This document shows positions 30,264 through 34,041 of a DNA stretch of 36,716 bases, in pieces (the first letter of the stretch is position 1; each line of letters opens with the position of its first letter). A program made the translations under genes and the position numbers. Origin of the DNA: Borreliella garinii (GTDB taxonomy: Bacteria > Spirochaetota > Spirochaetia > JABEVK01). The DNA lies in contig DYOB01000016.1 in assembly GCA_020720765.1 (NCBI GenBank), forward strand, positions 1-36,716, in the 5' to 3' direction. The notes under the pieces were generated by a model. That model was not told where the DNA came from. It searched no databases and saw only the letters and a list, made by a program, of their open reading frames with translations.

Positions 30264-31316
30264 ATGCAAACAACTGTTAACAAACTTAGAGAAATTCGAC
30301 TCATGGATATGGATGAAACAAACGAATTTCTTCAAACCAGCCTCTGGGGTGCCTTTAAGGCACAAACTGGATGGAAACCCAGAGCATTTGCTTTTTCCTA
30401 CCTGGTTGGGAATCAAGAATTGACGGCTAAGTTCCTGATACTTTCACGAAAAGTTTTCGGCCCCTTTTTTCTCGCCTATATCCCCTTTGGACCCAGGGTT
30501 TCGCTTCCAGCCAAGGAAGCTGGCCCCCTTCTTCATGACCTCAGCAAAAAATTAAAGAATCTACTTGAAAAACCGCTTTTGGCTGTGAGATGGGACCTTC
30601 CCAATCACTCTGAAACCATACTTCAAAAACTTCCTGGGCTTAAACGTGGCGCAGTCGTTCAACCTCCTGACACCGTCTGGATAGATATTTCACAAACCGA
30701 AGACGCTCTTCTGGATCAGATGGACAGGGGTCACAGGTACAATGTTAAGTACGCAGAAAGAAAAGGCGTCGTAATCACCGAGGCCGGTGCCGAAGGCGTT
30801 TCGCGTTGGTTTGATATCTTCCGAGATACGGCAAGCCGTGATGGGTTCGCAGGCCACGGCGAAGAGTACTATCAGAAACTTATGGATCTGAGTCGGGATT
30901 ACAAGGGACCGGGGAAAATCTTCTGCCGGATTCTCTTTGCAGAACACGAAGGGGACACCCTGGCCGGCACTATTCTGAGTATCGCCAACGGCACGGCTAC
31001 CTACCTTTACAGCGCTTCATCCAACACAAAAAGAAATCTAAAACCTGTGTATTGGATGCTCTGGAGGGCGATGCAGATTGCGAAAGCCGAAGGTTGTCAT
31101 CAGTTTGACATGTTTGGTATCCCTCCCGACAACAACCCCAACCATCATTTAGCTGGGCTCTACGATTTTAAAAGGAATTTCGGAGGAAAAATAGTTCACC
31201 GTTGGGGCAGCTGGGACGCCCCCTCCCATTTCCTCTACCCTGTATTCAAGTTCGCCGAATCCTTGCGCGCCCCTAAACCAAAGAAATCCAAGGTAAAGCA
31301 TACAGAAAGCTTATAG
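30264..31316 (+). CDS. FemAB/FemX-like aminoacyltransferase
   Basis: FemAB-family enzymes use aminoacyl-tRNA to add amino acids to peptidoglycan precursors. The 350 residues from ATG 30264 contain two GNAT-like domains: FLQTSLWGAFKAQTGWKPRAF and GHRYNVKYAERKGV in the first, then CRILFAEHEGDTLAGTILSI, YLYSASSNTKRNLKPVYWMLWRAMQIAKAEGCHQFDMFGI and LYDFKRNFGGKIVHRWGSWD in the second. A reading from TTG 30210 was rejected because it would start upstream of the promoter. Its stop overlaps the stop of the convergent TfoX-N gene. Confidence 0.88.
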   Translation: MQTTVNKLREIRLMDMDETNEFLQTSLWGAFKAQTGWKPRAFAFSYLVGNQELTAKFLILSRKVFGPFFLAYIPFGPRVSLPAKEAGPLLHDLSKKLKNLLEKPLLAVRWDLPNHSETILQKLPGLKRGAVVQPPDTVWIDISQTEDALLDQMDRGHRYNVKYAERKGVVITEAGAEGVSRWFDIFRDTASRDGFAGHGEEYYQKLMDLSRDYKGPGKIFCRILFAEHEGDTLAGTILSIANGTATYLYSASSNTKRNLKPVYWMLWRAMQIAKAEGCHQFDMFGIPPDNNPNHHLAGLYDFKRNFGGKIVHRWGSWDAPSHFLYPVFKFAESLRAPKPKKSKVKHTESL

Positions 31317-31658
31317 GAGGCTTTTTGGTTTCTTTTTCGGTTGTTTTTTCGGTTTCGGTAAAGGCAATTCTTCCGTTGTGACACGGATCAACTCTGCCAG
31401 CCGCTCCCTATCATCGAGCTCCTCCTCGATAAGAAAACTCAGCCTCGCCCCGGGGTATGCCGGAGCCTCGTGCGGAGAAGAAATCAATGTACGCCCTGTT
31501 TTCGTCGGTTTCAAAAACAGCTTATTTTCACACACTAAAGCAACCACCTTGCCCTCGTTATAGAGCGCGTACTCACCGAACATCTTTCGGCAAGAAACAT
31601 TTGGTAGTTCGGATAATTGATCGAGGATAAAATCTATAAAACTCTTGTCTGTAGCCAA
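31311..31658 (-). CDS. TfoX N-terminal-domain protein
   Basis: This small protein of 115 residues has the TfoX_N fold (FIDFILDQLSELPNVSCRKMFGEYALYNEGKVVALVCENKLFLKPT), related to the N-terminal half of the competence regulator TfoX/Sxy. A lysine/proline-rich tail follows (KPKKQPKKKPKS). There is no TfoX C-terminal domain, so a role in competence cannot be assumed. The start codon is TTG at 31658, and the promoter boxes place the transcription start at or next to it. It converges with the FemAB-like gene, with overlapping stops. Confidence 0.82.
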   Translation of the reverse strand: MATDKSFIDFILDQLSELPNVSCRKMFGEYALYNEGKVVALVCENKLFLKPTKTGRTLISSPHEAPAYPGARLSFLIEEELDDRERLAELIRVTTEELPLPKPKKQPKKKPKSLL

Positions 31659-31664
31659 AGAGGC

Positions 31665-31693
31665 AGTTTACTTTGCCTTCAGATTATTTTCAA
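31665..31693 (-). promoter_or_regulatory. Promoter for the TfoX-N gene
   Basis: On the minus strand TTGAAA (31693-31688), a 17-bp spacer and TAAACT (31670-31665) precede the TTG start codon by 6 nt. No Shine-Dalgarno is visible, so this would be a leaderless message beginning at or beside a TTG codon, which is unusual. Confidence 0.5.
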
Positions 31694-32002
31694 TGAGATA
31701 ATCCTTCTCTGTAAATCTAGTCAGTGTCAACCTTAATTTCGATAGGGTTCTTAGGTATAGAGAAAATCGTACTAGTCGAAAGCACACCTTAAAAGCCGAA
31801 TGATCTTTGTGAAAAGGCTCTTGTCCTAATAAGCACTCTATTTGATAAATTTAGAAATTGTATTCCATCTTACTTATTCATATATATTGTTTGTATAAAG
31901 ACTATAATATACCCACCATTATTAGAGAATATTGAGAAATTTATTATTTTCTCGAACATTTACAAATTATGGTACAAATCTTGCTTTTTTTAAAAATAAT
32001 CA

Positions 32003-32032
32003 TTGACAATTCAATATGATATATTGTAAAGT
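32003..32032 (+). promoter_or_regulatory. Promoter of the lipoprotein/YidD-like cassette
   Basis: A perfect -35 TTGACA (32003-32008) is followed by TGTAAA (32025-32030, spacer 16) or TAAAGT (32027-32032, spacer 18) as -10. Transcription would start near 32037-32039, giving a short leader with a strong Shine-Dalgarno. Confidence 0.55.
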
Positions 32033-32043
32033 GATTTCATCAC
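32031..32043. promoter_or_regulatory. Palindrome between promoter and Shine-Dalgarno
   Basis: GTGATTTCATCAC is a perfect 5-bp inverted repeat with a 3-nt centre, abutting the AAGGAGG Shine-Dalgarno by 2 nt. Because the expected transcription start falls inside it, it is better placed as a DNA operator than as an RNA hairpin. Confidence 0.4.
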
Positions 32044-32055
32044 AAGGAGGAATAT

Positions 32056-32523
32056 GTGAAAAAGATAGTTCTATTAGCAGCAATGACTGCTTTGATGGGT
32101 TGTGCGACTATGTTTAATGGGAAACCTCAGGTAATCCCTGTGACTTCAGATGTTGTAGTCAACATCGTTGTTAAAAACGCAACAGGTATAGTTGTTTTCG
32201 AAGGAGTGACCCCTGCTGAATTAAAGCTCCCCAGAAATTCGACATATACGGTTACTGTGAGTGCTCCAGGTTACGCCAGCGAAACCTTTGCACTCAATCA
32301 GAAAATCCAAGGCTGGTTTTGGGTAAGCTTGTGTACTACTGGTTTAGTAGGTATAATTGTTGATGCTGCAACAGGAAGTATGAACGAATTGACTCCTGCT
32401 CAGTTGAATGTTACTGTACGAACAGTTTCCCAAAATAATACCGAAATGATCCAAGTTGGTTTCTTTGCAAAAGACGAAGAAGGTAACCTTCGTTTCATCA
32501 CTCTACCTCTTGTACGCGCCTAA
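32056..32523 (+). CDS. Small lipoprotein with PEGA-like domain
   Basis: It has 155 residues. Start is GTG 32056 with a strong AAGGAGG at 6-nt spacing. The signal peptide ends in a lipobox, LMGC (Cys 16). The mature part has a PEGA-like beta-sandwich (VFEGVTPAELKLPRNSTYTVTVSAPGYASETFAL). A Gly-rich hydrophobic segment follows (GWFWVSLCTTGLVGIIVDAATGSM), of the kind seen in outer-membrane-associated lipoproteins. It probably sits on the periplasmic face of a membrane. It is first in the AT-rich three-gene cassette and has its own promoter and a terminator-like hairpin 10 bp after the stop. Confidence 0.85.
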   Translation: MKKIVLLAAMTALMGCATMFNGKPQVIPVTSDVVVNIVVKNATGIVVFEGVTPAELKLPRNSTYTVTVSAPGYASETFALNQKIQGWFWVSLCTTGLVGIIVDAATGSMNELTPAQLNVTVRTVSQNNTEMIQVGFFAKDEEGNLRFITLPLVRA

Positions 32524-32532
32524 AACCCTGAT

Positions 32533-32559
32533 GAGCCGGTTTTTCACCGGCTTATTTTT
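32533..32559 (+). terminator. Terminator-like stem-loop after the lipoprotein gene
   Basis: AGCCGGT / ACCGGCT (32534-32540 with 32546-32552) forms a 7-bp stem, extendable by one G-U pair, with loop TTTTC and tail TATTTTTC. It should terminate or attenuate transcription into the YidD-like gene. An ATG at 32531 in the YidD-like frame overlaps it, so the stem could also encode the first residues of a longer form of that protein. Confidence 0.75.
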
Positions 32560-32566
32560 CATTATC

Positions 32567-32902
32567 ATGAGAATTAGTGAAATAAACTCCCAGGAAATAC
32601 TTGAAAGAACGGACTTAATGCGTAGAGCTTGGCCAGAAAAACATCCTGATGCCTTAATAGAACAAATAATTTTAGCTTATCGAGCAAATGCTTCTGAAAC
32701 AACTGTTCACCGTTGTCCATTTCATACTTCTTGTTCCCACTTTATTTCAGATTCATTAAATAAAAAGGGAATTATTGTAGGAACATTAGCATCGATTGAT
32801 CGGTATTTCTTTAGAGAAAATTTAGACGCATATAACCATTACCCCCTTTTAAATAACCCAAATGGAGAAATCAAGATCAATGACGATGCGTTTCTTAAGT
32901 AA
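32567..32902 (+). CDS. YidD-like (membrane protein insertion efficiency factor family) protein
   Basis: YidD proteins are small factors working beside the YidC insertase. The 111 residues from ATG 32567 contain the family pattern C-x-F-x-x-(T/S)CS followed by Gly and a basic helix: CPFHTSCSHFISDSLNKKGIIVGTLASIDRYFF, about residues 55-87. The usual PTCS reads HTSCS, and the N-terminal 50 residues are not part of ordinary YidD, so this is a divergent subtype. ATG 32531 would add MSRFFTGLFFII, a possible signal or anchor segment, but that start lies in the terminator-like hairpin. Neither start has a good Shine-Dalgarno. It is not next to rnpA/yidC as typical yidD genes are. It overlaps the next gene by 23 bp. 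Confidence 0.7.
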   Translation: MRISEINSQEILERTDLMRRAWPEKHPDALIEQIILAYRANASETTVHRCPFHTSCSHFISDSLNKKGIIVGTLASIDRYFFRENLDAYNHYPLLNNPNGEIKINDDAFLK

Positions 32903-33761
32903 GTTCTGCTTTTTTTTTGTTACTACTTATGCCCTTTTCTCCCAGGAAAGGCCCCCAGTACCTACGAAAATTGATTTTGCACAATTTCTAGAGGCTGATG
33001 GAAACCTAGATGAAGCTTTTATAGTATGGAATGAGATTCTATTTTTTTCTCCGAATCAAGAGGGGGCGATTACAAGCCTTTTAGCATTAGCAAGGCTTGA
33101 ATTTATTCGTGAAAATTTTGCTCAATCTTTAAAATATTCACGAAGGCTTATGCAAATAGAACGATTGCCTCCTGAAGTCTTTGATTGGTCTCGTTTTTCT
33201 ATTCTTCTCAATTTATGGCAACTAGGCTCTAATCCTTTAATGTTTCCCGATTACCAATCCCTTGTACAATCCCAATCTAAATTTGAACCTTTGGCAACTG
33301 CGTTTTCAGGTTATTATTTGCTACGTTCGGGATTCATTGATGAGGCAAAAAAGGCTTTTGCTTCATCAAACCATCCATTGGCATTGTCAGGTATGGAACT
33401 TGTAACAAATTGGAACACACTTCCCAGGGTTTCGCCATGGTTGACAGCAAGCGCAAGCGCACTTATACCCGGTTTGGGACAAAGTATCAACGGTCACTTT
33501 GTTGATGGTGCACAAGCCTTTTTCTTCGTAGGCTTATTTTCCGGTACAACGTATCTCATGTACACCTATGAATCTCAAATTACAAAAACTTATCCTATGA
33601 CTATAATTTCGGGTTTATTTGCACTCACTTTTTATTTATCTAATATTTATGGAGCATACCAAACGGCAGAATTCAGAAACAAAAGAATGGAAACTGACCT
33701 AGTACTTCCGTGGTATAACGCATTTGAAATTGAATTTCTCAAAAGTCCCCTTAATCAGTAA
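32880..33761 (+). CDS. Exported protein with helical repeats and C-terminal TM2-like membrane pair
   Basis: It has 293 residues from ATG 32880 (ATG 32862 and 32886 are alternatives). A signal peptide (MRFLSKFCFFFVTTYALFSQ) is followed by a TPR-like helical region of about 150 residues (DFAQFLEADGNLDEAFIVWNEILFFSPNQEGAITSLLALARLEF). A TM2-like module comes next: ASALIPGLGQSINGHFVDGAQAFFFVGLFSGTTYLMY, then a second hydrophobic hairpin (MTIISGLFALTFYLSNIYGAYQTAEF). The PGLGQ..G....G pattern marks small membrane-hairpin proteins. It is expressed with the YidD-like gene, with overlapping frames. It ends 1 bp before the stop of the convergent parvulin gene. Function unknown; an envelope role is likely. 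Confidence 0.75.
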   Translation: MTMRFLSKFCFFFVTTYALFSQERPPVPTKIDFAQFLEADGNLDEAFIVWNEILFFSPNQEGAITSLLALARLEFIRENFAQSLKYSRRLMQIERLPPEVFDWSRFSILLNLWQLGSNPLMFPDYQSLVQSQSKFEPLATAFSGYYLLRSGFIDEAKKAFASSNHPLALSGMELVTNWNTLPRVSPWLTASASALIPGLGQSINGHFVDGAQAFFFVGLFSGTTYLMYTYESQITKTYPMTIISGLFALTFYLSNIYGAYQTAEFRNKRMETDLVLPWYNAFEIEFLKSPLNQ

Positions 33762-33762
33762 A

Positions 33763-34041
33763 TTACTCCCTCTTCCCGGTAACCTTTATAATATGGTAGC
33801 CGAATTGGCTGCTGACTACGTCGCTGATACTTCCTATTCCCAGTTTTTTCACTGCACTTTCAAAAGCAGGAACCATTTTACCAGTGCCGAACCACCCGAG
33901 GTCACCCCCCTGGCTTTTACTGGGGCAGGTGCTGAACTCGCGTGCTAATGATTCAAAATTCGCACCTTGTTTCACCCTTTGCCAAAGTTGTTGAGCCAAA
34001 CCCCTGTCTTTTATTAAAATATGACTTGCTTTCCATTCCAT
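33763..34041 (-). CDS. ppiC: Parvulin-type peptidyl-prolyl isomerase
   Basis: A 92-residue stand-alone parvulin like E. coli PpiC. The fold's motifs are complete: KASHILIKDRGLAQQLWQRVKQGANFESLAREFSTCPSKSQGGDLGWFGTGKMVPAFESAV and the C-terminal TQFGYHIIKV-type sequence SSQFGYHIIKV. It has no signal peptide, so it is cytoplasmic. It starts directly at the stop of the TldE/PmbA-like gene and is probably co-transcribed with it. Confidence 0.93.
   Translation of the reverse strand: MEWKASHILIKDRGLAQQLWQRVKQGANFESLAREFSTCPSKSQGGDLGWFGTGKMVPAFESAVKKLGIGSISDVVSSQFGYHIIKVTGKRE

Follow-up and report, generated by a model that had tools for sequence, protein, structure and literature searches.

A divergent YidD-domain gene paired with an exported TPR gene in a spirochaete contig, and its probable relation to a widespread gene cassette

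YidD is a small cytoplasmic-side helper of membrane insertion by Sec and YidC. The canonical protein (PF01809, TIGR00278) has no signal peptide and lies at the cytoplasmic face of the inner membrane. In Escherichia coli it is linked to Sec/YidC insertion, according to passages in two papers that cite Yu et al. 2011 (PMC8082313, PMC6822775). Other described proteins resemble further parts of the locus presented here. DUF5683/TM2 membrane proteins share with its third product, D, a PGLGQ(K)xYxG turn followed by a hydrophobic hairpin. BamD, LapB and YbgF/CpoB are periplasmic TPR assembly factors, and D is likewise predicted to be an envelope TPR protein, exported or bound to a membrane. Finally, LolA and the carriers of its superfamily (E. 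coli, P. aeruginosa, P. gingivalis LolA3) share their fold with a cassette partner that is found in relatives of the locus.

The window, by which we mean the whole stretch of 36,716 nucleotides that was analysed, carries three plus-strand genes at 32056-33761. The first encodes a lipoprotein, the second a divergent protein with a YidD domain (YidD') and the third an exported TPR protein (D). As the initial annotation had stated, this trio is flanked by genes of opposite orientation, which are a TfoX-like gene and a parvulin gene (Table 1). The span given there, 31659-33761, does contain the three genes, but its first 397 bases are a non-coding leader, in which no ORF longer than 39 aa was found and for which a search of Rfam gave zero matches. 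The trio had also been credited with its own promoter. A promoter-like site is indeed present, but sites of this kind are not clearly more frequent overall than chance would give (11 observed versus 6.8±2.8 in shuffles), and a terminator-like hairpin lies inside the trio. Because this hairpin separates the lipoprotein gene from yidD', a single transcript for the whole trio is not assured. Between 32530 and 32567 the hairpin region coincides with the upstream yidD' start, where attenuation or translational coupling may be possible. The start region of D overlaps the stop of yidD'.

Table 1. Positions of the three genes, their predicted signals and the flanking genes in the window
Feature	Position	Strand	Remarks
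TfoX-like gene (TfoX N-domain)	31311-31658	opposite to trio	
AT-rich leader, non-coding	31659..32055	.	between TfoX-like gene and lipoprotein; 28.7% GC
Promoter-like site TTGACA-N18-TAAAGT	32003..32032	+	10/12 consensus positions; consensus match only
Shine-Dalgarno AAGGAGG	32044-32050		5' of lipoprotein GTG start
Lipoprotein	32056..32523	+	GTG start, 155 aa, lipobox LMGC
Intrinsic-terminator-like hairpin	32530..32556	+	3' of lipoprotein; overlaps upstream candidate start of yidD'; consensus match only
YidD'	32531..32902	+	alternative start 32567
D	32889..33761	+	alternative starts 32862, 32883
D, TPR helical region	32967..33416	+	model residues 36-185
D, PGLGQ turn, hydrophobic helix (213-237), long helix (245-293)	33468..33740	+	model; DUF5683 match under cut-off
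Parvulin gene	33763-34041	opposite to trio	

The lower GC content that the initial annotation had reported for the trio is borne out by calculation, and GC, GC3 and codon usage all differ from those of the flanks. The GC of the lipoprotein, YidD' and D genes is 0.417, 0.339 and 0.378, versus 0.480±0.026 (minimum 0.435) in the 26 other genes of the window. The corresponding GC3 values of 0.333, 0.241 and 0.289 are each below those of all 26 genes (0.509±0.048, range 0.424-0.607). Codon-usage z scores are 3.1, 3.1 and 5.9, a measure by which a few native genes deviate too (murD, 5.3). Sequence searches found the trio neither in the one other sampled genome of the genus nor in the five other sampled members of the family. 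The genus mate keeps the gene order on the parvulin side (parvulin, next gene, FlgH), without the cassette or TfoX, and its FemAB gene is on the same contig at a distance of about 30 kb; relative to this genome, the gene order next to the cassette is broken. Transfer, which had been raised as a possibility, is favoured by the composition, by the absence from the six other sampled family members and by the broken gene order, although no donor lineage was found. The likeliest reading is that the trio was probably acquired by transfer, either into a rearranged site or along with it.

YidD' has the domain of canonical YidD, including the CxFxx(P/S)(T/S)CS motif, retained here as CPFHTSCS (CPFxxSCS), and the helix that follows it. 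It passes the cut-off of PF01809 (30.9 bits versus 27) and fails that of the TIGR00278 equivalog (35.7 bits versus 40). YidD' differs from the canonical protein in its location outside the rnpA-yidC operon, in the replacement of the second 'RC' cysteine (FRE, within DRYFFREN) and in a signal-peptide-like N-terminus, MSRFFTGLFFIIMRISEINSQ, which results from the upstream start in Table 1; the alternative start gives a shorter protein, and the true start is uncertain. The same genome has a second YidD on a different contig, in the order rpmH-rnpA-yidD-yidC, which agrees with the first description of the trio as lying far from yidC and rnpA. The exported-type family as a whole differs from canonical YidD by hydropathy. 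A strongly hydrophobic stretch is found in the 25-115 residues before the cysteine motif in 54 of 55 unfused exported-type YidD proteins and in 0 of 14 canonical ones, when the signal-like N-terminus is scored by hydropathy, not SignalP, with one threshold for both groups.

D begins with the hydrophobic leader MRFLSKFCFFFVTTYALFSQE, and PGLGQ precedes a hydrophobic C-terminal part. Its AlphaFold2 model (mean pLDDT 91.5) runs from a signal helix through a TPR superhelix and short helices around PGLGQ to the hydrophobic helix and the long helix. Sequence and predicted model thus agree with the combination of signal peptide, helical repeats and PGLGQ membrane hairpin that the initial annotation had proposed. 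Pfam-type matches to TPR and DUF5683 are weak (for DUF5683, E 0.01 and 16.3 bits versus a cut-off of 26.7). In contrast to DUF5683/TM2 proteins, the hairpin of D is preceded by a signal peptide and a TPR superhelix, and the cassettes described below encode tandem paralogs, D and E. A Foldseek comparison of the model with solved structures gave no close whole-fold match; the best E value was 0.01, the matches were generic TPR proteins, and BamD and LapB were among the best of these weak matches (E ~0.01). Unlike these two and YbgF/CpoB, D has a C-terminal membrane hairpin and a fixed pairing with exported YidD, in a cassette without BAM or Tol genes. The anatomy of the trio would fit a function in envelope assembly or export.

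With each window protein as a single query, searches of relatives gave only traces, and profiles were required. Two distant spirochaete matches to D each have an exported-looking YidD gene directly upstream and a second TPR/PGLGQ gene (E) directly downstream. Among 392 class-mates, a TPR-only profile (A2), with matches weaker than about 1e-12 counted as generic TPR noise, detected eight further genomes, and in all eight a YidD gene is directly upstream. A YidD profile (A5) applied to the same 392 genomes scores 11 of them at 105-176 bits and all others, which carry canonical YidD, at no more than 68 bits. The two profiles select identical sets, the same 11 of 392 genomes and no others, and the YidD and TPR genes are adjacent in 11/11. 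This co-occurrence is not built in, because the A2 profile holds no YidD information. Hence, the check that had been suggested initially, co-occurrence of the pair in other genomes, shows linkage in every spirochaete genome that has either gene. The opposite outcome, genes unlinked in all relatives, is contradicted by this linkage and by the recurrence of the whole trio in an unrelated genome (below). Two of the weaker TPR-profile matches (L050, L051) were rejected on reading, since the gene encodes a transporter in an ABC locus of the phosphonate type.

The D-type alignment contains no conserved stretch usable for a genome scan, and the E-type alignment worked. A scan of named genomes with the latter yielded 235 confirmed relatives, of which 80 loci were kept, in ten or more phyla. 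The taxa comprise Spirochaetota, WOR-3, KSB1, Poribacteria, Cloacimonadota, Zixibacteria, Electryonea, Brevinematales, Ignavibacteria, Calditrichia, Bacteroidota (Emticicia, Cyclobacterium, Flavobacteriales and others), Eisenbacteria, Neomarinimicrobia and Aminicenantes; a search for E-type matches on plasmids gave none. Outside Poribacteria, an exported YidD is beside E in 54 of 59 loci, and some of the remaining five are cut by contig ends. The exact order LolA-like, YidD, D, E on one strand is present in 34 of these 59 loci, and the order YidD, D, E in 11 more. In Poribacteria, E occurs alone in 16 of 21 loci. In Poribacterial loci such as L095 and L101, TPR-E is found about 4-5 kb from the other cassette genes, or without any of them in the flank that was retrieved. 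Four loci (L116, L131, L133, L139) contain two cassettes, the second of a divergent type, and the D proteins of these second cassettes form a fully supported Bacteroidota clade in the D tree. The window, like these cassettes, has an exported-type YidD immediately upstream of a TPR/PGLGQ D on the same strand. Profile A6 revealed no LolA-like gene in the window or its draft genome (97.8% complete), a genome that provides no positive control for this profile, and the search for E in the same draft matched only D itself.

The LolA-like protein of the cassette was modelled from a Poribacterial member (L087). The AlphaFold2 model (pLDDT 90.4) has the LolA half-barrel fold, and its best Foldseek match is P. 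aeruginosa LolA (2w7q, E 4e-12), with NE2245 (3buu) and P. gingivalis LolA3 (9tp6) also matched. Despite the similar fold of LolA3, the profile did not reach that protein by sequence. The cassette protein also differs from LolA carriers in scoring under the Pfam LolA cut-off, in being linked or fused to YidD, and in having no LolB or LolCDE gene in its cassette. In four Treponema-type loci (L045, L046, L047, L153), the LolA-like protein and YidD are fused into a single exported protein of 340-364 aa, and in three Bacteroidota-type loci (L113, L129, L152), TPR-E is fused to a C-terminal YidD domain. These fusions place the YidD domain with periplasmic partners. A mixed alignment of LolA and YidD sequences (A12) was badly aligned and was discarded.

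All-against-all clustering of neighbouring genes identified two families of small exported proteins, rich in Trp, Gly and Cys and with a hydrophobic hairpin, that are encoded directly upstream of cassettes. Family CL0 is present in 22 loci, and some members have a Cys-rich tail; family CL1 is present in 19 Bacteroidota-type loci, and two further clusters, CL7 and CL17, occur less often. One fixed criterion for hairpin ORFs (60-230 aa, with a hydrophobic N-terminus and an internal hydrophobic segment) was applied to 48 loci. Within 1.8 kb upstream, the cassette strand holds 39 such ORFs and the opposite strand 2, and the remaining control stretches hold 3-5 (4 further upstream, 5 downstream). 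When profiles are compared, CL0 is linked to CL1 across the hairpin with 91% probability. The CL1 member tested belongs to no Pfam or NCBIfam family, and no family is over cut-off for CL0 members. In L099 (2864-3688), L109 (619-1464) and L148 (2496-3485), larger exported proteins have a CL0-type hairpin as their C-terminal part and an N-terminal half that appears CsgG/FlgO-like on reading. Next to cassettes in L145 (559-2921) and L116 (6873-8425), small hairpin proteins (CL1 and the TM2-like CL7) are encoded as tandem paralogs, and the three E-YidD fusions adjoin exported CGGGC proteins of CL17.

The closest counterpart of the window trio is in L130, a locus from an unrelated metagenome-assembled genome. 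It contains a full YidD-D-E cassette and a second unit that consists of a lipoprotein, an outer-membrane-protein-like gene, YidD' and D'. The lipoproteins of L130 and the window share 34% identity over 154 aa (E 3e-28). The YidD' proteins share 38% over 73 aa, both have DR(Y/N)F(F/Y)REN and lack the second cysteine, and their C-terminal tails have a common pattern in which HY, L, N, G, K, D and FL are at matching places. D' is 25% identical to the window D, and it overlaps YidD' in L130. Thus, the two trios are homologs in the same order, with one extra gene in L130 between the lipoprotein and YidD'. That gene (L130 1628-2206) encodes a small exported protein resembling an outer-membrane barrel, with no Pfam family. 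The exact trio subtype is known from these two genomes only, and a search of the phylum of L130 (82 genomes) returned L130 alone. The D tree joins the window D, D' of L130 and one spirochaete D, a grouping that carries a long-branch warning.

The window lipoprotein has one hydrophobic segment, the internal GWFWVSLCTTGLVGIIV, and profile comparison detected no homology to the hairpin-protein families. It matches PEGA with an E value of only 0.021, and its L130 homolog exceeds the PEGA cut-off. Homologs are rare elsewhere (6 of 59 other relatives, or ~10%), and no cassette was found near them. However, because the lipoprotein-YidD'-D trio recurs in L130, the lipoprotein is not an accidental neighbour. 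In the reading favoured below, it is the likely client or outer-membrane-side partner of YidD'-D.

A chance neighbourhood of three unrelated AT-rich genes could be imagined from the terminator-like hairpin and from the lipoprotein family that is found alone in some relatives. This is very improbable, in that the identical 11-genome sets for exported YidD (YidD2) and the TPR gene, adjacent in all, already contradict chance for YidD'-D, and the trio is present twice. Another possible but unlikely origin is a full LolA-like/YidD/D/E cassette that lost LolA-like and E, and of which the window pair would be what is left in decay. Neither gene was found in the window genome, YidD' has no second conserved Cys and no D-P-V-P tail, and D sits on a long branch. 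However, all reading frames are intact, and L130 has its lipoprotein-YidD'-D unit beside a full cassette, with a YidD' that shares the RxEN motif and the C-terminal tail pattern of the window copy; decay would not yield a matching motif and tail twice. Even though LolA-like and E were not found, 'minimal subtype' describes the window pair better than 'remnant' does.

Other explanations concern what the cassette handles. Perhaps the cargo is not a protein but a lipid, pigment or acylated small molecule, with the LolA-like protein as carrier and the YidD and TPR proteins as accessories. LolA-fold proteins do occur in pigment operons, since the flexirubin operon of F. johnsoniae contains lolA2/lolB2 (PMC11885536), and LolA3 paralogs have no assigned role in the passages on them (PMC13103446). 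Because neighbour clustering shows small exported hairpin proteins instead of recurring biosynthetic genes, and because the window has no LolA-like carrier, we consider a non-protein cargo rather improbable. Equally improbable, in our estimation, is that exported YidD keeps an inner-membrane role and, with D, aids ordinary YidC/Sec clients from the periplasmic side, in which case the linked proteins would serve general envelope quality control. The E. coli link mentioned above and the membrane hairpin in the D model are consistent with such a role, whereas the patchy occurrence of the cassette (11 of 392 class-mates) is unlike general quality control, carriers of the cassette also have canonical yidD, and the LolA-like fusion argues for a periplasmic-transit step.

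We tentatively favour the reading, at a probability of roughly 0.45, that the trio is a minimal, divergent and probably transferred member of a widespread cassette of exported YidD and TPR/PGLGQ proteins, usually accompanied by a LolA-fold carrier and a small exported hydrophobic-hairpin protein, that delivers or inserts hydrophobic hairpin proteins. Its computed basis is the linkage, gene order and fusions, the LolA fold of the carrier, the signal-peptide-like N-termini and the hairpin neighbours; from these we infer that the products act outside the cytoplasm and that hairpin proteins are delivered or inserted. The neighbourhood of the cassettes suggests the small hairpin proteins as clients. 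In a mechanism of this kind, all cassette products would act outside the cytoplasm. D (and E) would be anchored in a membrane, inner or outer, through the C-terminal hairpin, with the TPR superhelix in the periplasm, and exported YidD might dock on D/E at the membrane face, by analogy with the insertion role of YidD. The clients of YidD and D/E would be small exported proteins whose hydrophobic hairpin is rich in Gly and Cys; YidD and D/E would together hold them, insert them or pass them on, and the LolA-like protein would shield the hydrophobic part of the client in transit. In the window version, YidD'-D would operate without LolA-like and E, and the lipoprotein with its hydrophobic stretch would be the client or the outer-membrane-side partner.

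The conserved system is larger than the module that was initially proposed, with the addition of a LolA-like carrier, the second TPR gene E and small hairpin proteins. The suggestion that it might be undescribed agrees with a literature search for the exported YidD/TPR/LolA-like cassette and for DUF5683, which gave no description, a provisional result in that most subscription journals are outside the coverage. A bolder proposal, which we regard as doubtful, is an unrecognised periplasmic pathway in Bacteroidota, other FCB-type bacteria, Poribacteria, WOR-3 and Spirochaetes. In this pathway, exported YidD, a LolA-fold carrier and two TPR/membrane-hairpin proteins would take small alpha-helical hairpin proteins across the periplasm and place them in a membrane, perhaps the outer one, and the window would hold a two-component version with a lipoprotein client.

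The exported YidD is widespread and conserved, occurs naturally in fusions with a LolA-fold carrier or a TPR membrane protein, and is encoded beside small hydrophobic exported proteins. This points to a step of membrane-protein delivery or insertion outside the cytoplasm, and to our knowledge such a step is not covered by known systems (Lol, BAM, Tat/Sec, YidC). Extra LolA paralogs in Bacteroidota are reported without a role, and the passages on them do not mention a link to YidD (PMC11885536, PMC13103446). Genes that in many Bacteroidota carry no annotation beyond 'YidD' or hypothetical become a testable pathway, for which Emticicia, Cyclobacterium and Stygiobacter are cultured hosts.
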